A stretch of 64,000 bases of DNA from Liolophura sinensis (lineage: Eukaryota > Mollusca > Polyplacophora > Chitonida > Chitonidae): positions 806,001 to 870,000 of the forward strand of contig NC_088300.1 of NCBI RefSeq assembly GCF_032854445.1, read 5' to 3'. A program made the translations under genes and the position numbers. Every line of letters starts with the position of its first letter. Within the stretch, counting starts at the first letter, position 1. This document shows positions 9,225 through 64,000 of this stretch, piece after piece. The notes beneath the pieces were generated by a model. The model saw nothing but the letters and a program-made list of their open reading frames with translations. It had not been told where the DNA came from and searched no databases.

Positions 9225-9315
9225 CTAATGACATGAGTGAACCAGCCCTAGACCAGCAGCAATGAACACAGCCATCCACGCCCCGGTACGCTCTGCAAAA
9301 TGTGGCGGAATTTTT
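9225..9315 (-). CDS. SLC29A-like: ENT last coding exon with apparent one-base frameshift
   Basis: Acceptor tttttcag, then [20 protein letters not shown] and GLGLVHSCH with a TAG at 9227-9225. Family members end in a glycine- and serine-rich TM11 finishing near V/I. In the frame one base off, the same DNA reads [12 protein letters not shown] followed by TGA at 9207-9205, which is what the family leads one to expect. The switch point is the ctggttc near 9241-9247, where one G appears to be missing. This could be an assembly or sequencing error, or a real shortening of the last helix. Confidence 0.8.
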
Positions 9316-12300: not shown

Positions 12301-15300
12301 GTTTGCCTCCAGGTTTCATTTTCAGGAGTCTGAAGTTTGATAAAGGGCGTATAGCAGCAAAATTAAAACCGTCTTTGCCAGAGCTGAACATTAACTAGCG
12401 ATAATGATTCGCTATTAAAGGCTGTTTTTTAATAGATCATTATAGTTAATACTCCATGGGGTAATTCACTAGCATTTGTGGGTCACTTAATTTTCTCATT
12501 TCTGGTGGCTGATTTTCGTGGCAAATTTCATGTGACTATTAGTACTCTATCAACAAGTCAAATCAGACTTCATTTTGAACTGCTTATGTTGACTGAATGC
12601 ATTTGTTGACTGAATCATTCATTTTGGAGAGTGAGGATTTCAGGAGAGCTTCAATAATGCACAGAACATTCATCTGGATGCACTAATCAAATTAGTTTCT
12701 AGTACACCTGAAGGGGATTGCGTGTCATTTTTGAAATGTCCTTTACAGGCTGAGAGTGACAACTACATATTCCATAAGCCATTAATGCATGACCATTCTA
12801 TCTTGATTCATGACTACTGAATATTTTTAATAGTGATGTCAATTGCTCATAATGTAAGTTTCAGTCAGTCTAGTCTGATGCTCTAGGTTGTAATCTTTCT
12901 GGGCAGGCCTTCACACATCACTAGACTGGTACCAAGCAATACATGTAACAATAACTGCATTGCGCATCGATTATCAGTTTGCAGTATCAACTAGGAGGCC
13001 AGCTTGAGTTCATGTATAGGCAGTGATAATTAATTTAAAATTGAGGATAGTAAAGAACAAAGATGTTCAATTTTAGTATCTCAAATGGTCGGTCAAATAA
13101 AAAAACCCCTCAACTTCAGCTGCAAGAAAAACTCAATTTCGCCCAGAAAATGGTGTCAATATATGGAAACAATGACTTCTATGCACACCTGCCACTGAGG
13201 ACAGATATGTTGCCCACTGAGAACAGACACACTGCCCACTAAGGACATACACACTGCTCAGCGAAGACAGACACACAGCTCACTGAGGACAGACACACTG
13301 CTCACTGAGGACAGACACACTGCTCACTGAAGACAGACACACTGCTCAGCGAAGACAGACACACAGACACACTGCTCACTGAGGACAGACACACTGCTCA
13401 CTGAAGACAGACATACTGCTCAATGAGGAGAGAAACATTGCTCACTGAGGACAGACACAGTGCCCACTGAGGACAGAAATGCTGCCCAATGAGGACAGAT
13501 ATGATGCCCACTGAGGACAGATATGCTGCCCACTGTCGACAGACACACTGCCCACAGACACACTGCTCACTGAGGACAGACACACTGCCCACTGAGGACA
13601 GATATGCTGCCCAATGAGGACAGATATGATGCCCACTGAGGACAGATGAAATGTGATAGGATATGTTTCTATACTTGGGTAACACCATGTAGACAAAGTG
13701 ACTTACTGTGGGGCCTGCATCATAGCCAATGTGCTGACATAACCATTGGACAAGGCCAACAGGATGATGAAGAGGACAGGTAAGGCATCGTTAGCAAATA
13801 TCACAGGTAGATGTGTCCTTGGGTGAGCGTTACACAGCATCAGTAACGGGATAAGCGCTGTACGGAGAAGAGTCACGCTGACCACACCAACACTGTTCTC
13901 TTTCCTCATCTGTTGGCAAACAGTCACGTACAGCATGTATTCCTGTCACCACAGGGCCATTAAAAAATATATCGCTAAAATACATTCAAGAGGAATGATC
14001 TTTGGTATGAAGGTCTGAAGATCAATGGTTCAAAAATGATTACAAAGCCAACACAACATATTCTACTGTTCACTGTTTCCTCAGCAATGATGATCTGTGA
14101 CAACACTGGTAATGTAAACTCCTATTACAGTATTAATTGTATTACAAAAGAGCAATGGACCCACCTGGCCATTATTTGGGAAAAGTTATTTTTTTTAAAA
14201 TTACAGTAAATCACCAATAATTTCATGGAATTTTTGAACATGATCTATTAAGCTGGGAAACTTGCACCGGCAACCATCCTACCACTCCAGTCCCAGGCAC
14301 TGAATGGACAAAAACACACCAACTTACCAACTGAACTCATCCAGCAGTCATCCTACCATCAACACTCCACTCCTTGGCATTAAATAGTCAAAAACACACC
14401 AACTTACCAAATGAGCCCATCCAGCCACCATCCTATTACTGCATTCCTCAGCACTGAATAAGCAAAAACACGCCAATTTACCAAATGAACTCATCCAGTA
14501 ACCTTCTAACCCCTCCACTCTCTGGAACAGAATAGTCCAAAACACATGAACTTACCAAATGAACCCATCCAGTAACCTTCCTACCCCTCCACTCTCTGGC
14601 ACTGAATAGTCAAAAACACACCAACTTACCAAATGAGCCCATCCAGCCACCATCCTATTACTGCATTCCTCAGCACTGAATAAGCACAAACACACCAATT
14701 TACAAAATGAACTCATCCAGTAACCTTCTAACCCTTCCACTCTCTGGCACTGAATAGTTCTATAACACACCAACTTACCAAATGAACCCATCTAGTAACC
14801 ATCCTAACCCTCCACCTTCTGGTACTGAAGAGGCAAAAACACACCAACTTACCAAATGAACCCATCCAGCAACCATCCTACCCCTCCACTCTCTGGCACT
14901 GAATAGGCAAAAACACACCAACTTACCAAATGAACCCATCCAGTAACCTTCCTACCCCTCCACTCTCTGGCACTGAATAGTCCAAAACACACGAACTTAC
15001 CAAATGAACCCATCCAGTAACCTTCCTACCCCTCCACTCTCTGGCACTGAATAGTCCAAAACACACCAATTTACCAAATGAACCCATCCAGCAACCATCC
15101 TACCCCTCCACTCTCTGGCAATGAATAGGCAAAAACACACCAACTTACCAACTGAACCCATCCAGTAACCATCCTACCCCTCCACTCTCTGGCACTGAAT
15201 AGGCAACAACACACCAACTTACCAAATGAACCCATCCAGCAACCATCCTACCCCTCCACTCTCTGGCAATGAATAGGCAAAAACACACCAACTTACCAAA

Positions 15301-18300
15301 TGAACCCATCCAGTAACCTTCCTATCCCTCCACTCTCTGGCAATAAATAGTCAAAAACACACCAACTTACCAAATGAGCCCATCCAGTAACCTTCCTACC
15401 CCTCCACTCTCTGGCACTGAATAGGCAAAAACACACCAACTTACCAAATGAGCCCATCCAGCCACCATCCTATTAGTGCATTCCTCAGCATTGAATAAGC
15501 AAAAACACGCCAATTTACCAAATGAACTCATCCAGTAACCTTCTAACCCCTCCACTCTCTGGCAATGAATAGTCCAAAACACACGAACTTACCAAATGAA
15601 CCCATCCAGTAACCTTCCTACCCCTCCACCTTCTGGCACTGAATAAGCAAAAACACACCAATTGACCAAATGAACCCATCCAGTAACCATCCTACCCCTC
15701 CACTCTCTGGCACTGAATAGTCAAAAACACACCAATTTACCAAATGAACTCATCCAGTAACCTTCTAACCCCTTCGCTCTCTGGCACTGAATAGTCCAAA
15801 ACATGCCAACTTACCAACTGAGCCCATCCAGCCACCATCCTATCACTGCATTCCCTGGCAATGAATAGGCAAAAACATGCCAACTTACCAAGCCCATCCA
15901 GCAACCATCCTATCACTGCACTCCCTGGCAATGAATAGGCAAAAACATGCCAACTTACCAAGCCCATCCAGCAACCATCCTATCACTGCACTCCCTGACA
16001 ATGAATAGGCAAAACACATCAACTTACCACCTGAGCCCATCCAGCCACCCTCCTATCACAGCACTCCCTGACAATGAATAGGCAAAACACATCAACTTAC
16101 CAACTGAGCCCATCCAGCAACCATCCTATCACAGCACTCCCTGACAATGAATAGGCAAAAACACACCAACTTACCAAGCCCATCCAGCAACCATCCTATC
16201 ACTGCACTCCCTGACAACGAATGGGCAAAACACGTCAACTTACCAACTGAGCCCATCCATCAACCATCCTATCACAGCACTCCCTGACAATGAATATGCA
16301 AAACACATCAACTTACCAAGTGAGCCCATACAGCCACCCTCCTATCACAGCACTCCCTGACAATGAATAGGCAAAAACACGTCAACTTACCAACTGAACC
16401 CATCCAGCAACCATCCTTCCACTCCAGTCCGCAGCATTAAATAGCACAAAACACACCACAGGAGTGAAGTATTCGTCTGAAACAGACAGCATTTCACCAA
16501 AAATCACTTATGTATCCAAAGAAATATCACTGAAAATGAATTAAGAGCTTGAGCTCTTTATAAAACACTTAAGATAACAAAAAGTTGACAGATACATGAT
16601 TTGACATATCTTATTTCCTTAACTTGGCCAGGATTTCTTACAACAGCATCTTTCATTAAATGTTATTGTAAGATAGGGTGAGAAATTTATGGAATATTTA
16701 AAATATCATATTTAATATTACTAATGACAGCCCATGTCAACCATTTTTTTGTATGTTTATGCTACAACGGGTGTTGAGTAATGCATCTTAGCTGACCATA
16801 AGACAAAGTAAACTATGAAACCTGGTTTTATACAAATATATACATACATATCCAATACCAGCCAAGCCAATGAGCCACTTAAGCTGTCCTTTGCAAGCCT
16901 ACAACCTGGCCTCATTTTATTTCCCTTGAAATAATGAGGGGCTTAATGCTAGTCACAGCTGATTTTCTGGCATTCAAAGAAATTTTATAAAGTGCCACTC
17001 AAAACGATGCCTTAAGTATGCAAGTGAAATCAATTTTTGTTATAAACCATCAGGTTTTTGTGCAATTTACTTCTTATTTTAAATAGAGCTTGATTAGTAC
17101 AGGCAACCAACAGTTTGGGTGCAGAAACGTTTCCTGGAACTGAAATGGCTCAACGCACATTAATGGGCCCCGGATGACAAAACTGTCTTAGACTTATTCC
17201 AAATGACCTAAAACTTCGCCCATAAACGTGCATTTTTAGAGATCAATAAATGTCACAAAATATTATTTTTGGTGCTGAAAATTTTCCAGTAGAATGTCAT
17301 CATATGTTCCAAGCAAACCTCAGAACTCTTTCCTAAAACCAACAGAACTCTCAGAATCAGGAAGAGTGGCAAGTCAGTCATGGATGAAATTTATGGTCCT
17401 TTAGGGTTTGATGTAAGTCTAAGACAGCTTCCCGAAGCTGGAGCCTGGCCAGCTGAAAAGTATTGGTCAACCACACAGTATTAGTCAACAGAAGCATGAA
17501 CCAACCAGTCCAGCTCATGCTAGCTTCCTCTCCGGCTGTACGCAGGAAGGTCTTCCAGCAACCTGAGGATGGTCGTGGGTTTCCCCCAGCCTATGCTCGG
17601 TTTTCTCCCACCATAATGCTGGCCTCCATCGTATAAGTGAAATATTCTTGAGTATGGTGTAACACACCAATAAAATAAATAAATGAACCAACCCATGGAT
17701 AAACATACTAGTAAGAGGACTATTGCCATATTTCTGCTCTGACTCTATGGCGGAGCAGATACCCGGGAATACGGCCAGGGTAACTGTAAATACCCAAAAC
17801 ACTGCAAACGCTTGTGGCCAAACCTGAGGAAACAAACAGAATACATTAAAAAAAGAGACACCAACTAATGTAACAGCTCTAAACGTCCATGGACATATTT
17901 TCTGACATGCTTGTATACTTATGACGTCATGGTATGGGCCATGTTAGAGGGCACTGTGTCATGTCACTTGTACCCCATGCACACGAGGCCACAGTATGGA
18001 TCATGTTAGAGTAACCAGAGGCACGATGTCACCTCACTTCTACCCCATGCAGACATGAGGCCACTGTATGGGCCATGTTCGAGTAACTGGAGGCATGATG
18101 TCACCTCACTTGTACCCCATGCAGACACAAGGCCACGGTATGGGCCATGTTAGAGTAACCGGAGGCACAATGTCAAGTCACTTGTACCCCATGCAGACAT
18201 GAGGCCACGGTATGGGTCGTGTTAGAGTAACTGGAGGCACGATGTCACCTCACTTGTACCCCATGCAGGCAGGAGGCCACGGTATGGGCCATGTTAGAGT

Positions 18301-21300: not shown

Positions 21301-24300
21301 GGCGTGCCAACCCCTTCTGCCACTAAGGTTCCTTTTATGGATGCAAACAGCTAAAACATGACAAGAAATAAAACCAAGCAATCAAGAAGTGGATGAAATT
21401 ACTAATCAAGTGCAGGATTACGCTCTGCCGGTCAGTGTGGCTTGACTGTTCTTAACCACAGGGAAACCGCTGGCTTAACTCACATCAAATGTACTTAATT
21501 TATCCCTGGCATTATTGCTTTTATTTAGATTTCGTGTCATGACAGTGTACGATGGACAGCGTCGATATAAGATATGGATATAGATTTGTGTGAGTGATTT
21601 GTTATTATTTGAGGAAGGATGAAAATACAATGCACTTGGAGCAAAAAAGTATGTCTGATCTGAATTAACTACAGTACCCCACCCCTGTGGCTAATAGCAA
21701 AAGTACAGATTCATGCCAAAGTGATGCGCATGTAAGAAATGGACATAGAACATGCTGTTAGTCATGAGAAAATACAATAATCTGAAGAGATAAGCCTTAC
21801 AAAAGCTGTATGGTGTCAAGCAAACACTTAGCATGAAAATTTTTCCTTTAATGTAGCTATCATTGTAATGCAATGGTAAGGTTTCAAAATCATTACACTT
21901 GGAATAGCCCTGTCAGTGGAAAACAGAAACATGCTGAGTGGAAATATTAGCATAGCATACATCTTCTAAACACTAAATGGATGAGACTGTTTTTTTCTAA
22001 TGTGTACTAAGATTTTCTTTGCTTCACAATCCTGGTTCAAGTAAAATCAACATTCATTCAGACTGCTCAGTTCAACATACACTGCCCTCATTACTTCCTG
22101 TGTGCTTCATCATTTTACCTGAGTAACACACCTAATACACATATAAATCATGGTCATGAAAGAAAAGGTTTTTCATGGAGCAATTAAGTTTAAATACTTA
22201 TCTTTATGGAAAGATCAATTGATACTATAGTTCAGTGGTGTACCTATTTAAAACATAATGCTTTCTGACATATGTTAGTGAAAAATCAAGCCCTTTATCC
22301 CACAGCGAAGGTCACTCAATGCCTTGTAAACCTTTTAGCAAAATTAAAGTACTTTGATATTAACTGCACATGAAGCTATTATAAGATAACAGTCAGCCAC
22401 ACATTCCAAATTCAGAAACCAAGCCAGATAGAAGCAAACAAAAAACATTAATCAAATACACAGACACTAGCTAAGGTGAGTCACGTAGGTGTTCAGCCGG
22501 CTAATCTAGTGTTGGCTAGATTATCTACCAGAGCACCACAGAGCACAAAAACACAAAAATATGCAAGAAATAGAATATGTACCTGTTGATGTCTTACCCA
22601 TGTAGAACTGGGAGAATTGCTGACAAAATATAAATGTCATTGTTTACCTGAAACTTTGCACAGTGTACTGTTTACCATATTGCTCTTTTATGGACAAACA
22701 ATGAAATTACATTATAATGTTTGATAATTATCACACAAGTCATGTAAGTTTTCACACTGGGTCTGTCTTAACAAGACAGCAAGGAAAATTGCACAAATTT
22801 TTCATACCAGAATTATAGACTGATAGAGGGGCTTCACACAACACAAGACTATGAATCAACTGACGCTTATTTATTTTAAGGACTTATCTTAAGGACCCTA
22901 GGTGGCAGAACCTGTGGTAGATGATAATCCTGTTACTCACCAAGAAATACAAGGAGGCAAAACCAAAGACTGAGAGGATGACCACAATCACAGCTGAAAG
23001 GAAGAAACCAAAGGCACTGGAGCTGACACTACTTCCTACCCCGAGTGACAGGACATTGACCAATGCTGCAAAGGTACCGCCCATAGCCTTCAAACAAATA
23101 TTAGCATATATCACTGTACATGTCAATTAGTGAAACAATCAATCCAGTGGCAACGAGGTCAGAGAATGTTCATGATATACTCTATGCTAGAACCTTAGTT
23201 ATGCGGCTTTACAGTTTATTTCCAGCATCCATCCTTTTATAAGTCTGTTTTCTGGATCAACAATACTTAATGAGCAGCAGTCATTTTCTGAAAGTATCCT
23301 ACTAAATACATTTCCAACAGTTTAAATACCTGTGACCATAGAACTAACAATTTAACACAACTATGACCACATAGATAACTGATCACTCATAGCTACTGAT
23401 CACTCAAATGTCCAGCCCAAACAATGCCCCCTCCCCCCACATCACAGATGTAGCACCTACACAGTACACCTACCTGACCACTCATAGCTGTCTGAGTGTA
23501 CCTGCCTGGGAACTGCCCAGACAGCCCAAACAATGCCCCACACATCACAGATGTAGCACCAACAATGTAACACCTACCTGACCACTCATAGCTGCCTGAG
23601 TGTACATGGCTGGGAACTGCCCAGACAATGCCCTCCCCCTACATCACAGATGTACCACCTACACAGTACACCTACCTGACCACTCATAGCACCCTGAGTG
23701 TACATGGCTGGGAACTGCCCAGACAGCCCAAACAATGCCCCCCCCCCCCCCCCACCACATCACAGATGTACCACCTACACTGTACACCTACCTGACCACT
23801 CATAGCTGCTTGAGTGTACATGGCTGGGAACTGCCCAGACAGCCCAAACAATGCCCCACACATCACAGATGTAGCACCTACACTGTATACATACCTGACC
23901 ACTCATAGCTACCTGAGTGTAACTGGCTGGGAACTGCCAAGACAGCCCAAACAATGCCCCACACAACACAGATGTAGCACCTACACAGTACACCTACCTG
24001 ACCACTCATAGCTGCCTGAGTGTAACTGGCAGGGAACTGTCCAGACAGCCCAAACAATGCCCCCCCCCCCCCACATCACAGATGTAGCACCTACAATGTA
24101 CACCTACCTGACCACTCATAGCACCCTGAGTGTAACTGCCTGGGAACTGCCCAGGTAGCCCAAACAATGCCCCTCATATCACAGATGTAGCACCTACACA
24201 GTACACCTACCTGATCATTCATAGCTGCCTGGGTGTAACTGGCAGGGAACTGTCCAGACAGCCCAAACAATGCCCCACACAACACAGATGTAGCACCTAC

Positions 24301-27300
24301 ACTGTACACCTACCTGACCACTCATAGCTGTCTGAGTGTAACTGCCTGGGAACTGCCAAGACAGCCCAACAAATGCCCCACACAACACAGATGTAGCACC
24401 TACACAGTACACCTACCTGACCATTCATAGCTGTCTGAGTGTACCTGGCTGGGAACTGCCCAGACACCCCGAACAATGCCCCACACAACACAGATGTAGC
24501 ACCTACACTGTACACCTACCTGACCACTCATAGCTGCCTGAGTGTAACTGGCTGGGAACTGCCCAGACAGCCCAAACAATGTCCCCCCCACTCCCCCACA
24601 TCACAGATGTACCAACTACACAGTACACCTACCTGACCACTCATAGCTGCCTGAGTGTAACTGCCTGGGAACTGCCCAGATAGCCCAAACAATGCCCCAC
24701 ACATCACAGATGTAGCACCTACAATGTACACCTACCTGACCACTCATAGCTGTCTCAGTGTACCTGGCTGGGAACTGCCCAGACACCCCGAACAATACCC
24801 CACACATCACAGATGTAGCAACTACACAGTACACCTACCTGACCACTCATAGCTGCCTGAGTGTAACTGGCAGGGAACTGCCCAGACAGCCCAAACAATG
24901 CCCCACACAACACAGGTGTAGCACCTACACTGTACACCTACCTGACCACTCATAGCTGTCTCAGTGTAACTGCCTGGGAACTGCCCAGACAGCCCAAACA
25001 ATGCCCCTCACATCACAGATGTAGCAACTACACTGTACACCTACCTGATCACTCATAGCTGCCTGAGTGTAACTGCCTGGGAACTGCCCAGACAGCCCAA
25101 ACAATGCCCTTCACATCACAGATGTAGCACCTACACTGTACACCTACCTGACCACTCATAGCTGCCTGAGTGTAACTGGCAGGGAACTGCCCAGACAGCC
25201 CAAACAATGCCCCACACATCACAGATGTAGCACCTATAACAAAGTTCTGCCATGAGTCAACAGCCACACATACTATATATATCTACGCGTAAAAGTGGTA
25301 AGAGGACTTTCTGTCTGAATGCAACAACCACACATACCATATATATCTAGACATACAAGTGGTAAGAGGACTTTCTGCTTGAATGCAACAACCACAGATA
25401 CTATATATATATCTAGACATACAAGTGGTAAGAGGACTTTCGGCTTGAATGCAACAACCACACATCATTATTCTTATGTGATGTGAATTTAGCTTTTCTT
25501 TTTCAACTAGACCTAAATCATATAAACTTAAAATCATGCACAAATATCTTACATACATCCAACATTTGAATGAATGTTCTCCACTAAAAAACTCTCCAAA
25601 ACCAGTGGAAGTTGAATTTGAATGATAAACTTCATTAAACGCTAGATCAACAGTTAGATTGTAATAGTTCATAACTCACAAAAAGAGTAGCTTGGCTCAT
25701 GCCAACACTAGTTTTCTGGATAGATGGAATAAAAACTACCCACACTGAAAGCAAATTGACACAATTCCTTCCTAGCCAGAGTACTTTATAACAGTCAATT
25801 CACTTATTCATACTCCTCCATTAGATTACTCACCACTTGTTATGGCAACTGTTACAAGAGTTAAAATGAAGAAATCTGTCTGCCCTGTAAAAACAAACAG
25901 GAACCTTATGATAAATGGTCAAAGCTGAGAGAGAACACATTGTACCTACCAGTAATACTATATTTACATTTGACGTAATTCTGTTCAACACAATATTAAT
26001 TAAGGATTGACTGTAGTTTTTTTTTAAGGTTTATTGGGTGTAAAACCACTGTGCAAACTCTTGTATGCACCGCGTAAGTATTGACTGTAATATTTTTTGG
26101 GGTTTATTGGGGTATAAACCAAAAAAAAAAATACCTTGCAAACTTTTGTATGACAGTGCAGTACTGACTGTAATATTTTTTAGGTTTACTGGGGTATAAA
26201 AACTACTGTGCAAACTTTTGTATGCACCACATAAATATTGACTGTAATATTTGTTAGGTTTATTGGGGTACAAATGAAATAACCGCTGTGCAAACTTTTG
26301 TATGCACCACATATGTATTGACTGTAATATTTGTTAGGTTTATTGGGGCATAAATGAAATAACCGATGTGCAACCTTTTGTATGACCCGCTTAAAAAAGA
26401 GGCTGATGAGAGAAACTTTACATCTGTGGATCGTTTCAAAAAGAATCACGAATAACTTGACACTTAGGCTGTGAAATCATTTTTCTTATTTTGAGACCAG
26501 TTTCCTAGGTGACAAGACGTTTGCGCTGTGAGTAACGGACTGCTGTTGTTGCACACTGAGGATATGTGGGAGTGTGTACACAGTTGACTTCACAATGCCG
26601 CTTGCAAAACGCGTGTAATTGTGACATATGTCTCACTATCTAAATCTTACTGATTTCCAAGAACAACAGTGTGCATTTTAGACATCCATTAGAAAGTTTA
26701 TTTATTATTTTATTTATTTGATTGGTGTTTTACACCATACTCAAGAATATTATGGTGGGTGGAAACCGGGCAGAGCCTGGGGAAACCCACAACCATCCGC
26801 AGGTTGCTGGCAGACCTTCCCATGTACGACCGGAGAGGAAGACAGCATGAGCTGGACTTAAACTCACAGGGACCGCATTGGTGAGAGACTCTTTGGTCAT
26901 TACGTTGAGCTAGTGTGCTAACCAACTGAGCCACGGAGGCCCCCAGTTGGAGTTTATTGGGGTATAAACATAAAACTGCTGTGCTTGTTTTGGTTATGTC
27001 ACTCGCACTCGCACAAGACTGTCTGTGTCTGTGCCACTGTGTGGTCATTACTGAGGTAGGTATGGCTGTTTAACAGTCTTAATTTCTCGTAGACTATCCA
27101 AAGAATTTGCAAGGTTAATGAATGTGAAGATAATTCAGAAGAAAGTAAATACATTTAGTGTTATGTTTGTCATTTTACATGGTGTGTCTTCAGTCTCTTT
27201 TAGTTCTGTTCTTGGAAAAAGTAGTCCTATGTGGGCGTGGCTTCGTTTTTTCAGTTTATTAGAGTATAAATGCAAAGATTTGACCAATCAGATTGCGCCT

Positions 27301-52200: not shown

Positions 52201-53890
52201 CATATGCGTGAGATACACTATGAAAATGGCGACCACCAAGGAGACCCATGAGGCAGAAAATAAGTCATCAATATTTGGAGGCTTAGCCTGAACTTGTATG
52301 ACCTCTCTTGGAAGGCACAGATAAAGCATATGATATACATTGTTATGAAAGAGAGGGCTACAATTAGAACAAATTGTTATGTTTGTCTATCTTTTCACTG
52401 AATAGGGGTATAAAGTGAAAATTTGAACATTAGGACAAGAAAATTTTCCAAGAAACCTTAAAATTTCGAAAGGAGAGACAGCTTAGGTATATTAGACATT
52501 GTATCAATGACCATGTACAAGAGCCCACCATCATAAACAGGTCACATGATGTCACGTTGCTAAGTATCTGCTCACAGTTGCCAGTCGTACGTGCACCGAA
52601 TCTCATCAGAAGCTGCCAGTTGCTCACAATCGTAAGGTTTTGTCAAACTTTTTGACGTAAGTTCAACTGTGTTGAGTTGTACCCAGTTGCTTACGATCAC
52701 AAGTGGACCTACGCTCTGCTTTAAATACTTGCATACATTAAACAAAAGTTACTGCTCATCTGCAGATTGTTGACTTTTGGCCAATAATCAATTTTCATTC
52801 AAGACATTCATTACTCACTGGAGATAATCGGTTGCATGCTGTTGTTGTTGTAGATTCCTCAGATGATGAGGGTGAAGTCATTACTCACTGGAGATAATCG
52901 GTTGCATGCTGTTGTTGTTGTAGATTCCTCAGATGATGAGGGTGAAGTCATTACTCACTGGAGATAATCGGTTGCATGCTGTTGTTGTAGATTCCTCAGA
53001 TGATGAGGGTGAAGTCATTACTCACTGGAGATAATCGGTTGCATGCTGTTGTTGTTGTAGATTCCTCAGATGATGAGGGTGAAGTCATTACTCACTGGAG
53101 ATAATCGGTTGCATGCTGTTGTTGTTGTAGATTCCTCAGATGATGAGGGTGAAGTAGCGCTTGATGACCTGATGGCCATTCATTCAGAATCTGAGGTAAG
53201 CCTCACAAGGTTTTTACAAAAGTTCACTGCTGTTTATCCAGTGTTTATTTCCTGGCTCTTCTTCATCTCTGTTCTATATACATGTTTTGTTGAGCATGTC
53301 CTTGAACACCGGTGTACACTATATGACGTAAAATTTTGCCCACAAAGTTCATTTTTAGAGGCAAATAAATGTGGGGAAATATTATTTCTGGTGCTGAGAC
53401 TTTTCCAGGTGAATATCATTCTGTGCCCCATGCAATCCTCAAAACTTTTTCTAAACTCAAATAGAACTCATTTGAGTTAGTCATGGACGAAAACTGAAAT
53501 AGAACTCATTTGAGTTAGTCATGGACGAAATTTTTGATCATTTAGTGTATTTATGATTTGGTTAGGTGGGGGTGGGGTGGGGCGGGGGCGGGGGGCGAAG
53601 TAGTAACTGTTTTTTCTGCTTATCTTGCATCAGTGTGGAACCTGGTATCTCTACCTTTAGGTCATGGTTGTGCAAGTTCATATTCAAATCCATTCTCATC
53701 ACCGTCTGTAGGAAAACAAAGTTACTGGACTTGGCACAATTCTTGGATTGTATCCCAGTTGGTCTTAGTTGGTATACTCAAGATAACTAACTTCTGGTTC
53801 TCACAGGATAACTGGGAGGACCTGTCTGATATGGAAGCTGTAGATGGCGGTGACGATAATGGCAAAGACATGGAGGAGGAGGATGACTGA
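34260..53890 (+). CDS. WDR43: WD repeat protein 43 (UTP5, small-subunit processome / t-UTP), complete
   Basis: A nucleolar protein needed for pre-18S rRNA processing and Pol I transcription. Seventeen coding exons: 34260-34445, 36156-36296, 36689-36810, 37128-37242, 37722-37858, 38090-38192, 39390-39454, 39864-40035, 41001-41084, 44966-45094, 49255-49392, 49630-49748, 50254-50317, 50786-50899, 51541-51607, 53131-53195, 53807-53890. Total 1905 nt, 634 residues plus stop; human has 677. An N-terminal WD40 propeller (SADGVIKIWE, SNDHHITQWDV, SAGRSIKLWN, LSAALNDRLINVW) is followed by a basic linker (KRKKRKPS). A Utp12 domain spans exons 11-14 (ALLLTQGLQSQDKL to GKLNLVLSQ). The acidic tail has SSDDEGE and DNWEDLSDME, ending MEEEDD. 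ATGs at 34260 and 34263 are both possible starts. Exon 8's donor is the weaker gtcagt. Introns hold many minisatellites. Confidence 0.95.
35525..35740 (+). mobile_element. Second SINE family, degenerate copy
   Basis: tRNA-like front (agagttggttaataccggct and a box-B-like ggtcaatcctgg), then cttgcctggcattcagcatg and gtgcagcaactggatgag, which matches the element at 9370-9745 in reverse. It lies in WDR43 intron 1. Confidence 0.55.
35880..36085 (+). mobile_element. Very worn SINE-like remnants
   Basis: Pieces such as ttgatggctttctcgaggca, cggttttctcctcccattaa, gttcttgagcaacaatcaat and later gaaaaattctggagtatggc follow the order of the main SINE body and tail. Weak similarity only. Confidence 0.35.
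36803..36890 (+). repeat. Three-copy repeat containing the WDR43 exon 3 donor
   Basis: The true junction aaaca|gtgagtgctttgctac (exon ends 36810) is followed by two further copies, ...acagta|gtgagtgcttt at about 36842 and ...caaaca|gtgagtgcttc at about 36870, with units of 28-31 bp. All three have a GTGAGT donor. Confidence 0.85.
38270..38612. repeat. 57-bp repeat, six copies, WDR43 intron 6
   Basis: Unit ctgttcatatttctctctgg, gaactgccgattttgatgtt, tgctgtcagataatgtc. Nineteen codons long, so it is open in frame on both strands (for example SKHQNRQFPERNMNR on minus). It begins about 75 bp after the exon 6 donor. Confidence 0.92.
38645..39342 (+). repeat. 22-bp minisatellite with a GGTAAGG motif in every unit, WDR43 intron 6
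   Basis: About 32 copies of ggtaaggtgatcagtattga plus ct. Each has (t/g)g|gtaagg, a near-consensus 5' splice site in the sense strand. The array ends 48 bp before the exon 7 acceptor. Confidence 0.93.
40612..40690. repeat. 21-bp repeat, four copies, WDR43 intron 8
   Basis: Unit gtctgtacaccacatgcacc plus a. Confidence 0.9.
40742..40838 (+). mobile_element. SINE tail remnant
   Basis: tttttttccatccataaggc, ttgaaatattcttgtgtaag and ataaaacaacaatcaga match the 3' part of the main SINE. Confidence 0.5.
41115..41830. repeat. 40-bp minisatellite, WDR43 intron 9
   Basis: About 18 copies of ctgtcatttcatcacacctt, catggcccatgcaaactgac. It begins about 30 bp after the donor of exon 9. Confidence 0.92.
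41995..44670. repeat. 34-bp minisatellite, about 79 copies, WDR43 intron 9
   Basis: Unit agtgcacaaacattggcata, gtggacatgatagt. The largest array in the window at 2.7 kb. With no stop in any minus-strand frame of the unit and a length not divisible by three, the minus strand stays open for over 500 codons with a 34-residue period. This is a property of the repeat, not evidence of a gene. Confidence 0.95.
45110..45925. repeat. 44-bp minisatellite, WDR43 intron 10
   Basis: About 18 copies of tgctgttataggaactactg, ctgccctcaagagtgtagta, acac/atgc. It starts about 15 bp after the donor of exon 10. Confidence 0.93.
47465..47835 (-). pseudogene. THAP-domain protein relic, antisense in WDR43 intron 10
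   Basis: Reading from the ATG at 47835: MSRLYVAARCYNSTADSVHL, then KWPNDEKAAK, then an A-tract of about 23 bases (47724-47746 on the map). The frame beyond the tract continues as WTKSVKNTQV... SKWLLLCSAHF, then FEELNSVAKA and SAVLRKKF, stop at 47465. The spacing of A-x-x-C, W, C-S-A-H-F and the closing AV..F block follows the THAP zinc-finger pattern (C2CH DNA-binding domain, related to the P-element transposase domain). Three faults argue for decay: the A-tract breaks the frame, the first zinc Cys position appears to be Tyr, and the usual AVPTxF end is AVLRKKF. It could instead be a live gene with an assembly error in the homopolymer. Confidence 0.65.
49251..49254 (+). promoter_or_regulatory. 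WDR43: NAGNAG tandem acceptor at WDR43 exon 11
   Basis: The sequence ttctgttagcag|atgaca has AG at 49250-49251 and again at 49253-49254. Using the first would add one Gln codon before MTMEDR without changing frame. Confidence 0.6.
51442..51540 (+). repeat. 33-bp repeat of the WDR43 exon 15 acceptor region, three copies
   Basis: Unit ttgtggttggtttccagtct, ggtaatgtttcag. The third copy ends in the true acceptor at 51540. Earlier copies end in the same tttcag at 51474 and 51507. From either, reading stays in frame without a stop and would add one or two LWLVSSLVMFQ peptides before IKSQDQ. Confidence 0.9.
51648..51886 (+). mobile_element. SINE, near full length, diverged
   Basis: Head gggacctctgtggccgaggg, body cttcctctccagccgtgtgg and tgtggatggtcgtgggcttc, tail gaaatattcttgagtatggc, gtaatacaccagtcag. 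It lies in WDR43 intron 15, 40 bp after the donor. Confidence 0.85.
52808..53158 (+). repeat. 70-bp repeat of the WDR43 exon 16 acceptor and exon start, five acceptors
   Basis: Acceptors gttgttgtag end at 52853, 52923, 52990, 53060 and 53130 (the last is the true one). Each is followed by the same first 24 bp of the exon (attcctcagatgatgagggt gaag). In the four upstream copies this runs into tcattactcactggagataa, giving an in-frame stop after SSDDEGEVITHWR. The true copy continues gtagcgcttgatgacc. One unit is 67 bp because one gtt is missing. Confidence 0.93.
53325..53550 (+). repeat. Degenerate relative of the MITE-like element at 17183
   Basis: Shared pieces in the same order: catttttagaggcaaataaatg, aatattatttctggtgctga, ttttccag, agtcatggacgaaa and atcatttag. 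The ends have lost the inverted repeat. A 38-bp piece with aatagaactcatttgagtta is duplicated at 53459-53530. It lies in WDR43 intron 16. Confidence 0.65.
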
Positions 53891-57908: not shown

Positions 57909-60900
57909 TCATTCAAGCTTACTGAAGGCAAAATTTGCTAGTTTAGAGTTTGTAGACTGTGACAGAGGGTTCTTTGTCTTCTCTGCTGTTTCTGTAGTTT
58001 TTGACTTCTTCTGTGAGACTTCCTGTGGTGTGAGACATGGTTCAGCGTGTCTCTTTCGCTTTTTATCTGTGTCACTTTCTACTTCACCACGGGACTTCTT
58101 CAGCCAAACCTGTCAATATAAATCCATCAGATCTAATATTATTACCCGTTTCAGACAGAACAAAAACTGCAGCACATATCCATTGAGCAATAGTAAGACT
58201 TGACCCTGTGCTTTGATATTCTAATGTCCGCCTAAAACAGTAGTTGTTACCTCAGAGCCAGTCCAACACAGATCTGTCTGTAACATAGCTTCAGATGTAA
58301 CACAGATTTTGTCATTCTGGTTACTTGATGATGATGTCTGACAATCTAGCCACCATATTTATAGTATTGCCTGCTATGCCATGTCAATGTCACCAAATAT
58401 ACATATAATGGGACACCAAATCCCAGTATACTGACCGCAGACCGAGTGTCAAGACAGGTAAGTATCAAGAATGTGAAGATAGATTAGAACAGCCTGCTTG
58501 TACAAAACTGGTTTGAGATTTAACTTTAAGCCAACTTGTTAATTTTTCACCTAGCTGAAACGAAATTGTGTACTAGTACATTAAATATGAACTAAAACTG
58601 CTGCTCTTATACTTTGACTTTGAAGAAAGGCATTGGCTGCTGAGTTTGGGTACAATTTTAAGTATAAAATATGACTTAATACCAGTATTGGCGTTTTCAA
58701 ACAACTGGGCCCATGTCTCTAACAAGATTTATCACATAAACTATGTGCACAAGGGCTTATTTTAGAAAACTAAACATTCACTGTGATACAATAAATTTCT
58801 GCAGTCTACCTGTCGTTCCTCCTTTGGCAACTCCCTGAACTTCTCTGCAGCCATGGTTTGCAGCTCCTCTGCTGACAGCTCAGGGTGTTCCTCGGAGATG
58901 TCAGTCTGGTTCTCCTGAAACCACAGCTGATAAGCTGTCCTGCAGAATGAGGAGACAAACAATGTATGAACATACACATAATAACAATAATAATGTCTTT
59001 ATTTATCGAAGGTAGCTGGGTCAATTTACAATGAAACAGTTGTTCCCCAAGGCCTTCACAGACAACATACAGAAAAAAATGTAGTTTAGAGTCCAATCAA
59101 AAATATAGATCAATATATATAAAACAAGATAAAGCATCATGTAGTAACATAAGTAGAATGAACAACTCAGAATAGCACAGAACAGACACAATGAACATGA
59201 ACTGAAGGAAACTCAAGACACAGTGATTACAAGTCTGGAAATAGGTGCCTGGTATTTTTGAGAACACCCCTTCAGAGAAAGTGGGAGAAAGAAACAACAG
59301 TATTCAGTTATCTTAATTCCATCTGGTTATGTATTCACTCAAGCATGACAACAGGTTCTTGTTTATACAGTTTTAAACCAGCACTATGGAAAATGTGGGC
59401 ACATTGTCCATGTTATATAATACTAAAACAATCTTACTTTATAGTAAGTAAGGATAGTAGACCATGGACAATGGGGGCCCGCTTTAGAGACCATGGATAA
59501 TGTGGGCCCACTATAGAGACCATGGACAATGGGGGCCCGCTTTAGAGACCATGGATAATGTGGGCCACTATAGAGACCATGGACAATGGGGGCCCGCTTT
59601 AGAGACCATGGATAATGTGGGCCCACTATAGAGACCATGGACAATGGGGGCCCGCTTTAGAGACCATGGATAATGTGGGCCCACTATAGAGACCATGGAC
59701 AATGGGGGCCCACAACAGGAACATATAACCATGAACATGTAACCAGGAACACTCCAACTTTACTGACACTCCTTTTAACTCTGGGTGAATTTTCTCAAAT
59801 CAACAATAATGAAAGATTAGCAGGACAGATTGGCAGAAAGAACTGAGATGAACAGTCCAAATTATTTATCTATCTGCTGTTCAATGCCAGTCTCCAGAAT
59901 TCTTCCTTGATATGACGTCAGACACCTTTACAGGCTGATCAAATCAACGTGTCTGCACTCACTTTTTCTTCCCGGCTTCTATGGTATCACCGTTTTCTGT
60001 GGGTTTCTTATTTTCAGATGACTTTGTGGATTTGGCCTTGAACAGTTTTATTTGTGATGAAGCCTGCAGAGTACAAAGTAAAACATTCATAACAAATGCA
60101 GTTTCAAACTTAACCAGATTTATTCTATTCTTTATTCTCAATTTTAATCAGAGTAACATTTGGAAAATACTGATTCTCCATTATATCTTGATTTGCAACA
60201 TCCTTGAAAAAAGAAAGAGTAAAACCACACTTTTGATCTGATTCCAATGTACCCACTTTTTTCTTTGAATCGCTCACAGTCAATGGTAAGGTAGGACTTT
60301 TCAAGGTTTTCTTCTCCTTTGCCATGTCATCAAAGACTTTGGATCCTTTGACAACTGTGTGTGTCTTCTGAGGTGTGGACACCTGAAAAAGGCAATAAAG
60401 CAAAGTCTGACATCCATTCTGCTCCTAGGATTCTCAAAGTTCTCTTGTCATCACTTCTACAATGTTTAAAAACTTGTCATAAACACTGATAAACTTTCAG
60501 GTCTTGTAGAATATTTTTCAAGAAATTTCTTCCAAAAGCCTCACCTTCAGTGCATGTGTGAAGTGGAGCTGATGATATTGACGGTGATGTGACCTATCGT
60601 AAATGGGTTTTTCCTGAATAAGGAGGCAGCAGTAGGCTCTGAGGGCTTACTCACGGCCACTTTGGCAGTGAGACTGAGATTACCTACCTTAAATGGGTTT
60701 TTCCTGAATAAGGAGGAAGCAGTAGGCTCAGGGCTTACTCACGGTCACTTTGGCAGTGAGACTGAGATTACCTACCTTAAATGGGTTTTTCCTGAGTAAG
60801 GAGGCAGCAATAGGCTCTGAGGGCTTACTCTCGGCCACTTTGGCAGTGAGACTGAGATTACCTAAATTAAATGGGTTTTTCCTGAGTAAGGAGGCAGCAG

Positions 60901-63562
60901 TAGGCTCTGAGGGCTTACTCTCGGCCACTTTGGCAGTGAGACTGAGATTACCTACCTTAAATGGGTTTTTCCTGAGTAAGGAGGCAGCAGTAGGCTCTGA
61001 GGGCTTACTCTCGGCCACTTTGGCAGTGAGATTGAGACGAGGACCTTAAATGTAAATGTGAACAGAAATAAGACATAGTCACACAATTATTCCCAGGGCT
61101 ATATATCAATATGACTAGTTCATGCTCTATTTATCACATTTTCAGATAACAGTTTGGGCACATTCACCAATGGGTAATTTTCAGAATATAGGAACAAATG
61201 TTGTAGTTGTTGTCTGACCTGTTGTTTCCTCAGTTTGATCCTCTTGCTCCATGTCTTCCTCTGCCTCGTCTTCACTTACTCCTCCCTCCTCCTCCTCTTG
61301 GCCAATCAGACCTCGCTTTGTAGTAGGCCTTCTGTGGCCATTCCAGCCACTCCTCCCAACAGCCTCAGGCCGGCCACTCCTGTTAAGTGAAATATGAATA
61401 TCCATGTTCTGTTGACTGGTACACTTCTGTCATGAAACATCATTTTACTCACTTTAGGCCATTAAATTTAGATGGCTTTGTAAATTTCAGATACTGGTTT
61501 TAGTGATCAATAATAATTAATGAAGGCAAAAAAAAAAATATTTTTGGCCAATTCTTAAGAATACATCATACATATGTGCTGGTACGGAAGACATCAGTCA
61601 GCTTTGTGTCAGACCGAACTCCTGACTTCTATTTCATACAAACTTTATGGTATAATTTGCGTCAATGCAGAAAATTTTTGCATATATATTCAAAGAAAAA
61701 AGATAGACTATTCTCCCACCTGCCAGGAACATTTTGCTCTGTATTCAAGAGTTAATGTTTTGCTCACCTTATGCTAGGAGCAGTGAGGTAATCCTCTTCC
61801 TGGTTTTCAGGTGTTTCCTCCTCTGCCTTGCGCCTAGCAACGTCACTGATGCGCTCTGCTAGCTGCATACGGCGCAGACGACTGGCGTACTTGATGGCTA
61901 GCTGTAGTGTGTGCTGATCAGGCATCATCTCACAAACTTCCACAGCTCTACACTCACGGTCTGAGCGAGCAGACAGCTGAAAACAGTAACGCAGCCCAAT
62001 CACACAAACTTCTACAGCTCTACACTCACAGACCAATCACACAAACTTCTACAGCTCTACACTCACAGCCCAACCACACAAACTTCTACAGCTCTACACT
62101 CACGGACCAATCACACAAACTTCTACAGCTCTACACTCAGGGTCTGAGCGAGCAGACAGCTGAACACAGTAACGCAGCCCAATCACACAAACTTCTACAG
62201 CTCTACACTCACAGCCCAATCACACAAACTTCTACAGCTCTACACTCAGGGTCTGAGCGAGCAGACGGCTGAAAACAGTAACACAGCCCAATCACACAAA
62301 CTTCTACAGCTCTAAACTCACAGCCCAATCACACAAACTTCTACAGCTCTACACTCACAGCCCAATCACACAGACTTCTACAGCTCTACACTCACGGTCT
62401 GAGCGAGTAGACAGCTGAAAACAGTAACGCAGACCAATCACACAAACTTCTACAGCTCTACACCGACAGTCTGCAGCAAGAATTTTACTGTAATCATCAG
62501 CCAGTTATTTATTTCAATATTAATATAATTAACGTTTGAATCACTACAATTTGAACACAATCTTCTACACTTTGCTACACTTTAAGCATAATGTGCTACA
62601 CTTTGAGCACAACCTGCCAGATTGTTTCACTACCAGAATTAGAAAAGACCACAGTCAAGTACAGCTTTTTTCCCACATGGATTGATAACCATAAAAATAC
62701 ATCTTACTGCAAACAATTTCATCAGAGCTTCCTGAGCTGGTTTCAGCATTTCAATCTTAACACTGTCATCCACTTCATACCCCTGGGTTTCCAGTACACT
62801 GAGATGGTTTGAGAGAAGCCGACTCCGGAGCAGTGTCTCCTGAAAAGAGGAAGGAGAAGAAGAAATGACGGATTGTATCAAACGCATCACAACATTCATA
62901 ACAGTCATCTGAATGGGACGAAATTGGTCTGTCCATTGAAATAAAAACTCAATTTCTGCTTATATTTATTGAATTTGTGTTTAAATGAAATATTTAGAAT
63001 TATACAAAACCTCAATTTGGACATCTATATAATCCAACAAAGCAATCTGTGCAAATTTTGGCTATTTATTACATCTGTATCGTCTAGTCTAACAAATCTC
63101 TGTCAGTTGTAAAAACATTATCTTTTACCCTATCCAAAGTGGACAAAAAATGATGTTTATGTATACTGTATCAGTGTATTTGTGTATTGGTCAAAACAAC
63201 CTTCAGTGCATGTTCATCTTTACAGAGGTACTTTTCAACCAAGTCAGTATTTGCCTCTATTAAACAGACAAGCTGTGGTCTTGTCTATATCACAACAGAT
63301 TCTTCTGGAGTATAGTGTAATCTTACACCAATAACAGACCAGACTATCTGTCATGTAATGTCACCAAAATAAAACAAATAACTATGGTAAAGGCCTTCAC
63401 CAGGTCATCAAATGAACACGTGTATTGATAAAGGGAGGTAATCTCACCTCGTACTGACTCTTCTCCGTGCTGAGTTCACACAGAGGCAGCTGGTAAGGCA
63501 GTACTGACACCATGGGGCGGGGTAAGGTCGGGGGGAACTTGGAACCCTTACACATGATACAC
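57909..63562 (-). CDS. WDHD1: WDHD1 / AND-1 / Ctf4 homologue, C-terminal nine coding exons
   Basis: AND-1 couples the CMG helicase and DNA polymerase alpha at replication forks. Minus-strand exons: 63448-63562 (CIMCKGSKFPPTLPRPMVSV), 62708-62839 (LLSNHLSVLETQGYEVDD), 61768-61976 (LAIKYASRLRRMQLAERISD), 61219-61379 (acidic, GQEEEEGGVSEDEAEED), 60956-61044 (SLLRKNPFK), 60257-60382 (VSTPQKTHTVVKGSKVFDDM), 59963-60063 (KLFKAKSTKSSENKKPTEN), 58810-58939 (HMG box: TAYQLWFQENQTDISEEHPE) and 57909-58109 (VWLKKSRGE ... LANFAFSKLE stop). Phases agree throughout. The end matches the human C-terminus (LSAFAFKQE-like), and the NPFKV motif is shared with the human linker. The N-terminal WD40 and most of the SepB region lie past the window. 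Exons at 60956 and 61768 have been partly amplified into arrays, so the exact linker length is uncertain. Confidence 0.95.
59455..59712. repeat. 56-bp repeat (two 28-bp halves), WDHD1 intron
   Basis: Unit agaccatggacaatgggggc, ccgctttagagaccatggat, aatgtgggcccactat; about 4.5 copies. The two halves are themselves related. Confidence 0.92.
60598..61044 (-). repeat. 90-bp repeat of a WDHD1 exon plus its donor, five copies
   Basis: The first copy is the exon 60956-61044 (acceptor tttaag). On the gene strand it ends ctcaggaaaaacccatttaag|gtaggt and is followed by four more units. These begin gtaggtaatctcagtctcac and repeat the exon through NPFK. The unit is 30 codons and copies 1-3 are open without a stop, reading VGNLSLTAKVAESKPSEP... 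repeats. The aag|gtaggt donor is intact in copies 1, 3 and 4 and destroyed in copy 2 (aatttagg) and copy 5 (acgatagg). Copy 4 has a 2-nt deletion; copies 4 and 5 gained a strong internal gtgagtaag. Confidence 0.92.
61930..62465 (-). repeat. About 36-bp array derived from the acceptor and start of a WDHD1 exon
   Basis: The basic unit cacacaaacttctacagctc, tacactcacagcccaat matches the coding start of exon 61768-61976 (its reverse complement encodes RAVEVCE). Longer units also carry ggtctgagcgagcagacag|ctgaaaacagtaac, the exon's first bases and acceptor, at 61976 (true), about 62160, 62270 and 62417. From these extra acceptors the frame soon meets a stop in a following gtgattgggctgtga. Confidence 0.88.
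62935..63060. repeat. Dispersed-repeat fragment similar to 11880-12000
   Basis: Shared order: attgaataaaaa ctcaatt, ttattgaatttg, gaaatatt, aaaacctcaatttggacat, caaagcaa. Diverged; no ends defined. Confidence 0.4.
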
Positions 63563-63934: not shown

Positions 63935-64000
63935 CCACAACATTGTTGTCTGTTGTCACCACAACATTGTTGTCTGTTGTCACCACAACATTGTTGTCTG
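63935..64000. repeat. 24-bp repeat running off the window end
   Basis: Unit caccacaacattgttgtctg ttgt; almost three copies, cut by the window edge. Confidence 0.85.

Follow-up and report, generated by a model that had tools for sequence, protein, structure and literature searches.

A 64,000-nucleotide (nt) stretch of the Liolophura sinensis genome (hereafter the window; bases 806001-870000 of contig C6, NC_088300.1, in the 609-Mb assembly of 632 contigs) contains a gene of the ENT/SLC29 nucleoside transporter family whose 86-nt exon 6 is repeated head to tail as 17 copies and a truncated 18th. We consider it very probable, judging from the sequence, that this array is a minisatellite derived from exon 6 and its donor, expanded within the following intron, and that copy 1 serves as the functional exon. 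The extra copies are likely to be non-coding by-products, and splicing probably still passes through the original exon. The host gene lies on the minus strand and comprises 13 exons, separated in the model by introns of 321-4391 nt. Its closest protein match is NCBI protein P0001, a database gene model of 451 amino acids and the sole L. sinensis entry among 120 listed (of 354 matches in all), which forms a one-member cluster under a name without an isoform label. Family membership is given by the Nucleoside_tran domain PF01733 within P0001 (E=1.1e-65), and a profile search of the whole genome with this domain returned six matches, the short exon copies not among them. The assembly was originally published under the name L. 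japonica (PMC11068029; correction PMC12441733), and the excerpted text of that report describes 609.5 Mb in 632 scaffolds, with HiFi reads of 8.3 kb mean length at 14x coverage.

The exon 6 array and its spliced copy

The copies run from 25233 to about 23400 in window coordinates (Table 1) and are mostly 103 bp apart, the usual unit consisting of the exon and a 17-bp spacer that begins with GT; the spacer after copy 16 measures 18 bp. Tandem Repeats Finder reported the array at 23433-25236 in three rows (scores 2336-2699), of which the period-103 row starts from 23750, and a DNA search of the assembly placed it at a single location. Pairwise identity among the copies is 85-97%, copy 16 apart, and copy 1 is distinguishable from each of the others by at least a few bases. 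The repetition of 103-bp units, head to tail, is that of a minisatellite or variable number tandem repeat, and the unit carries coding sequence of the neighbouring exon, as an exon-derived array does. A first-pass annotation of the window had described about 17 tandem exon copies bounded by AG and GT and held apart by 17-18 bp starting with GT. The spacing was reproduced, as was the copy number, to which a truncated unit is to be added, and all copies carry donors, but copy 17 is preceded by TG rather than AG. A stop-free 86-nt frame is kept in 10 of the 17 (copies 1, 4, 5, 6, 8, 9, 10, 13, 14 and 17). The remaining seven are broken, by TGA in copies 2, 3 and 11 and by altered length in copies 7, 12, 15 and 16, so that growth of a C run, to which the annotation had attributed the damage, explains copies 7, 12 and 15 (a grown G/C run) but neither the stop codons nor the deletion in copy 16.

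Splicing the 13 exons with copy 1 gives a translation identical to P0001, and exchanging copy 1 for the initial 86 nt of another copy yields, in all 16 cases, a product that differs or is cut short. Because neither 86 nor 103 is divisible by three, only one copy is usable without a frame shift. Entry at copy 1 combined with any later donor would bring translation to a stop at 25051, inside copy 2, and this stop precedes 16 of the 17 donors. Splice sites were scored with position weights derived from the window genes (20 donors and 21 acceptors), exon 6's own sites excluded. Donors of all 17 copies are strong (9.25-10.19, against 3.8-11.9 for real donors; 99.2-99.7th percentile of GT sites), and the acceptors of copies 2-17 score from -6.0 to +0.59, all below that of copy 1, real acceptors spanning -0.8 to 14.1. 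A second AG stands five bases upstream of the acceptor in seven of the 16 downstream copies. Taken together, the geometry of the array would leave copy 1 as the best exon.

Substitutions were compared among downstream copies 2-15 and 17 (15 in all, the rearranged copy 16 being dropped), which hold 31 distinct exon variants. Of these, 7 are synonymous, 23 missense and 1 nonsense, whereas 8.2, 21.9 and 0.9 are expected when the observed transitions and transversions are placed at random. On these 15 copies, with variants treated as independent, an omega of 0.5 is disfavoured at P=0.02, 0.3 at P=2.9e-4 and 0.2 at P=2.5e-6. The variants are not fully independent, since conversion can spread them between tandem copies. 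All 17 copies together give 10 synonymous, 27 missense and 1 nonsense variants (expected 10.2, 26.7 and 1.1), and variable exon sites number 10, 8 and 11 at codon positions 1, 2 and 3, respectively. The downstream copies thus vary like unconstrained DNA, and the counts argue against purifying selection at omega ≤0.3. With seven of 17 copies broken and no synonymous excess, the array has neither the preserved frame nor the purifying selection by which mutually exclusive exons are recognized.

Table 1. Exon-derived arrays and related features (window coordinates unless a locus is given)
Feature	Position	Strand	Basis or remark
Copy 1, ENT exon 6, used in NCBI protein	25148..25233	-	exact 13-exon spliced translation
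Copies 2-17, within intron 6 of NCBI model	23474..25130	-	9/16 stop-free at 86 nt, 3 with TGA, 4 length-changed
Truncated 18th copy, array end approximate	23400..23456	-	
First 17-bp spacer, GTAGGT...TAG, strong donor and weak acceptor; similar spacer behind each copy	25131..25147	-	
Acceptor region of copy 1	25234..25253	-	score +2.22
Separate 64-bp x 3.2 minisatellite immediately upstream of copy 1	25258..25465	-	tandem-repeat listing
ENT exon 11, source of second array	16391..16476	-	13-exon model
74-bp x 28 array of exon 11 3' end and its donor	14365..16426	-	Tandem Repeats Finder, units listed
90-bp x 5 donor-side array of WDHD1 exon; NCBI protein takes first donor	60592..61037	-	
37/109-bp acceptor-side array of WDHD1 exon (61768-61976); NCBI protein takes last acceptor	61927..62471	-	
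WDHD1 acceptor-side arrays beyond window	73018-74190 and 74592-75084		flanks L032, L033, numbering continued from window base 64000
70-bp x 5 acceptor-side array of WDR43-like exon	52808..53155	+	
Kinase array, 80-bp unit x 7	L073:472-1047		
Kinase array, 37/73-bp unit	L069:1213-1530		

Arrays at other exon edges

The exon 6 array does not stand alone, a point missed in the first-pass annotation. Exon 11 of the ENT gene is the source of a second array, whose spacers measure 33-35 nt, run from GT to AG and start with GTAAGT in 23 of 29 listed units. Its acceptors score from -0.2 to 8.4, within the real range, six of the 28 reaching at least 8.0, and the exact P0001 model takes the first donor. 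By appearance these spacers resemble very short introns, with mostly GTAAGT, a T-rich stretch and AG. Two further observations concern the same gene: the units of the 64-bp minisatellite immediately upstream of copy 1 resemble the acceptor region of copy 1 by eye, which places exon 6 between two arrays, and the last ENT exon (9228-9315) gives P0001 an end reading GLGLVHSCH, the C-terminus being shorter than in seven other ENT proteins compared.

Similar arrays were detected in unrelated genes. WDHD1, identified by its Ctf4_C and HMG box domains and by NCBI protein P0121, has four exon-edge arrays, a single donor-side one and three acceptor-side ones, although the array at 73018-74190 overlaps its exon by merely about 10 bases. 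Among the splice alternatives tried in this gene (22 GT sites and 9, 31 and 78 AG sites), the NCBI protein resulted solely from the site at the complete exon. Six arrays could be compared with NCBI proteins, at ENT exons 6 and 11 and at the WDHD1 exons with starts at 61045, 61976, 74665 and 73026; in all six, the protein uses the copy attached to the complete exon. One acceptor-side array was found in a gene whose joined exons match the Utp12 family and which we take to be WDR43-like. A 22-bp x 5.9 array (L032:706-834) ends exactly at a WDHD1 exon acceptor, with CAG at a constant place in most of its units; being borderline, it was left out of the exon-edge count. A 24-bp array at 1616-2345 starts about 25 bp past the donor of a PSME4 exon and, by eye, contains no exon sequence.

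Exons elsewhere in the genome were sampled through kinase matches (138 matches, 131 of 844 candidates scored). The 30 best-scoring loci (L035-L064), which include many long uninterrupted frames, were excluded as exons; 50 single-exon-like loci were chosen by eye, and the first 20 (L065-L084) were examined. Exon-edge arrays occur at two of these 20, on the acceptor side in each case, and consist of copies of the exon's own 5' edge. A profile search with PF00005 gave 19 matches. Overall, exon-edge arrays were found at 9 of 68 exons (ENT 2/13, WDHD1 4/25, WDR43-like 1/7, PSME4 0/3, kinases 2/20), where WDHD1 exon ends beyond the array junctions were placed by tblastn or by eye, WDR43-like and PSME4 ends were all placed by eye, and the WDR43-like count leaves out exons 5' of about 49 kb. 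The rate within the window is biased because the window was chosen for holding such an array; the kinase rate is free of that bias, but comes from a small sample.

The surrounding DNA is rich in tandem repeats. Counted at a period of at least 15 and at least 2.5 copies, minisatellites make up 33% of the window (30 arrays) and likewise 33% of the 84-kb region (39 arrays); around the 20 kinase exons they amount to 6.5% even at two or more copies, and density thus varies across the genome. The genome repeat table assigns 0.08% to 'Other (simple repeat, microsatellite, RNA)' and 14% to unclassified repeats in the excerpted report (PMC11068029), and the arrays described here may sit in the unclassified class or have been missed by that table. 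Random placement of 39 units over the 84 kb predicts 3.2 exon overlaps against seven observed (P=0.035, a value biased by the way in which the locus came to light; P=0.092 for the other six when the exon 6 array is set aside), and five are observed in the window alone against 2.1 expected (P=0.051). Chance seeding nearly suffices for the observed overlaps. Genome-wide, triple AGGTRRGT matches outnumber those of the backwards pattern by 4811 to 3472 at gaps of 72-102 (ratio 1.39) and by 4684 to 4151 at gaps of 32-62 (ratio 1.13). Because matches inside one array are non-independent, we claim no genome-wide enrichment of donor-bearing arrays.

Origin of the array and alternative explanations

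We propose that an initial duplication would have begun close to where exon 6 starts and reached a few bases beyond its donor, that repeated tandem duplication then built the array, and that copy number would have shifted afterwards by slippage or unequal exchange. Copy 1 would have stayed in use as the copy with the best acceptor and the sole one behind the native end of the intron. A duplication over an exon edge should be tolerated if one copy stays joined to the complete exon. On the reading that we favour, minisatellites grow across exon edges, with those arrays surviving that leave one intact exon. The same process is likely to lie behind the arrays of ENT exon 11, WDHD1 and the WDR43-like gene, in a region of which about one third is minisatellite. 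A cause specific to the ENT gene was considered and dropped, as the arrays at exon 11 and at the WDHD1 and WDR43-like exons weaken any explanation special to exon 6.

Several observations weigh against an exon-derived minisatellite spliced only through copy 1. The acceptor of copy 1 is itself weak, second-lowest among the 21 real acceptors although still within their range, and has 8 pyrimidines in 17 positions, which corrects the first-pass description of copy 1 as the only one with a normal pyrimidine tract and acceptor. Six downstream acceptors equal or exceed the weakest real one (-0.80), namely those of copies 6 and 12 (+0.59) and of copies 9, 11, 13 and 16 (-0.79), and the acceptor position of copy 17 (-0.21) also lies above it, but has no AG. 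Ten of the 17 also retain an intact open frame. One and the same donor 9-mer occurs in 16 of the 17 copies, a possible hint of constraint, although such identity is unremarkable given about one variable site in three (33/103). NCBI proteins are models, so that the use of copy 1 is known from a gene model rather than from transcripts. Exon edges, finally, may be favoured in array seeding, as seven overlaps stand against 3.2 expected at random.

Some of these points would suit a set of mutually exclusive alternative exons, in which the ten intact copies are chosen singly to give ENT variants reading FPAS, FPGS, FPAR or FPAM. The open copies, the strong donors in all 17 and the six downstream acceptors that reach the weakest real score accord with such a system, as does the geometry, since the 17-bp spacers are too short for copies to be spliced together and skipping or doubling shifts the frame, so that exactly one copy must be picked. 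The reservoir of alternative exons that the first-pass annotation had raised nevertheless appears very improbable: a synonymous excess is absent from the 15 downstream copies, seven of the 17 are broken, every downstream acceptor falls below copy 1, with the additional upstream AG in seven of 16, and the NCBI model contains copy 1 only and has no isoform label. The annotation's other suggestion, an exon-derived satellite, is supported by the 103-bp tandem units of exon 6, their unconstrained variation and the like arrays at other exons.

It is also very unlikely that the array acts as a regulatory decoy, whereby the 16 extra donors compete for U1 small nuclear ribonucleoprotein and, when used with the acceptor of copy 1, produce early-stop transcripts, likely lowering ENT expression in step with copy number. 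Each of the 16 downstream donors is strong and sits past the stop met after copy 1, and a minisatellite is reported, by the title of Turri et al. 1995, to provide several splice donors to an interferon-induced transcript. Conservation of the donor 9-mer, however, does not clearly exceed that of the flanking sequence, and similar arrays on unrelated genes require no gene-specific role. A repeat collapsed or mis-expanded during assembly is conceivable since tandem arrays are difficult to assemble and HiFi coverage is merely 14x, yet the array spans 1.8 kb against a mean read of 8.3 kb in the excerpted assembly report (PMC11068029), its copies are mutually distinct and like arrays occur at unrelated exons. 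An artefact is thus extremely unlikely, although the exact exon 6 copy number in the assembly could be wrong.

Known systems and implications for splicing

The human minisatellite mentioned above resembles the chiton array in being a repeat that supplies several splice donors; the chiton unit differs in containing an entire exon, or one end of an exon, in addition to the donor, and its extra donors are known from sequence alone. Tandem exon duplications and mutually exclusive exons share the adjacent copies of one exon within one gene (Ivanov and Pervouchine 2022, PMC9013439, as excerpted), from which the chiton differs in its 17 copies, 17-18-bp spacers, weak downstream acceptors, seven broken copies and lack of any sign of purifying selection. 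The gain of introns by duplication in the potato RNA-dependent RNA polymerase gene (PMC4974935, as excerpted) likewise involves a tandem duplication that moves GT and AG signals, and the exon 11 spacers are like introns of 33-35 nt; in contrast, the chiton spacers are shorter than all ENT introns, and the model splices out the whole array with its host intron. Earthworm metallothionein genes also have large minisatellites in introns beside short exons, but in the excerpted text (PMC12783039) their units are not said to copy the gene's own exons. Exon-derived minisatellite arrays of this kind were not found described in the open PMC literature when titles and abstract beginnings were searched with the terms used. 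Tandem exon duplication, minisatellite donors and intron gain by duplication are known in outline; what is new here is the density of the arrays and their whole-exon units.

A broader and more speculative possibility, which we regard as unlikely, is that the exons of this chiton 'sprout', with tandem splice-edge arrays grown from about one exon in eight and offering the spliceosome a choice of many nearly identical donors or acceptors, exon edges serving as favoured minisatellite seeds and some arrays acting as alternative exons or new introns, or damping expression in a copy-number-dependent way. For annotation, the exon 6 array advises caution, as a short match that resembles an exon may, in a genome of this kind, belong to an exon-derived satellite. 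In these natural examples, about 3 to 28 donors or acceptors that resemble one another stand beside real exons, in both orders, and so bear on the question of how one splice site is chosen among near-identical neighbours. If the rate of 9 in 68 exons holds genome-wide, existing RNA sequencing data of this species, which include public sets from five tissues (PMC11068029), could supply many natural replicates for tests of the proximal-donor rule, first-AG scanning and exon definition.

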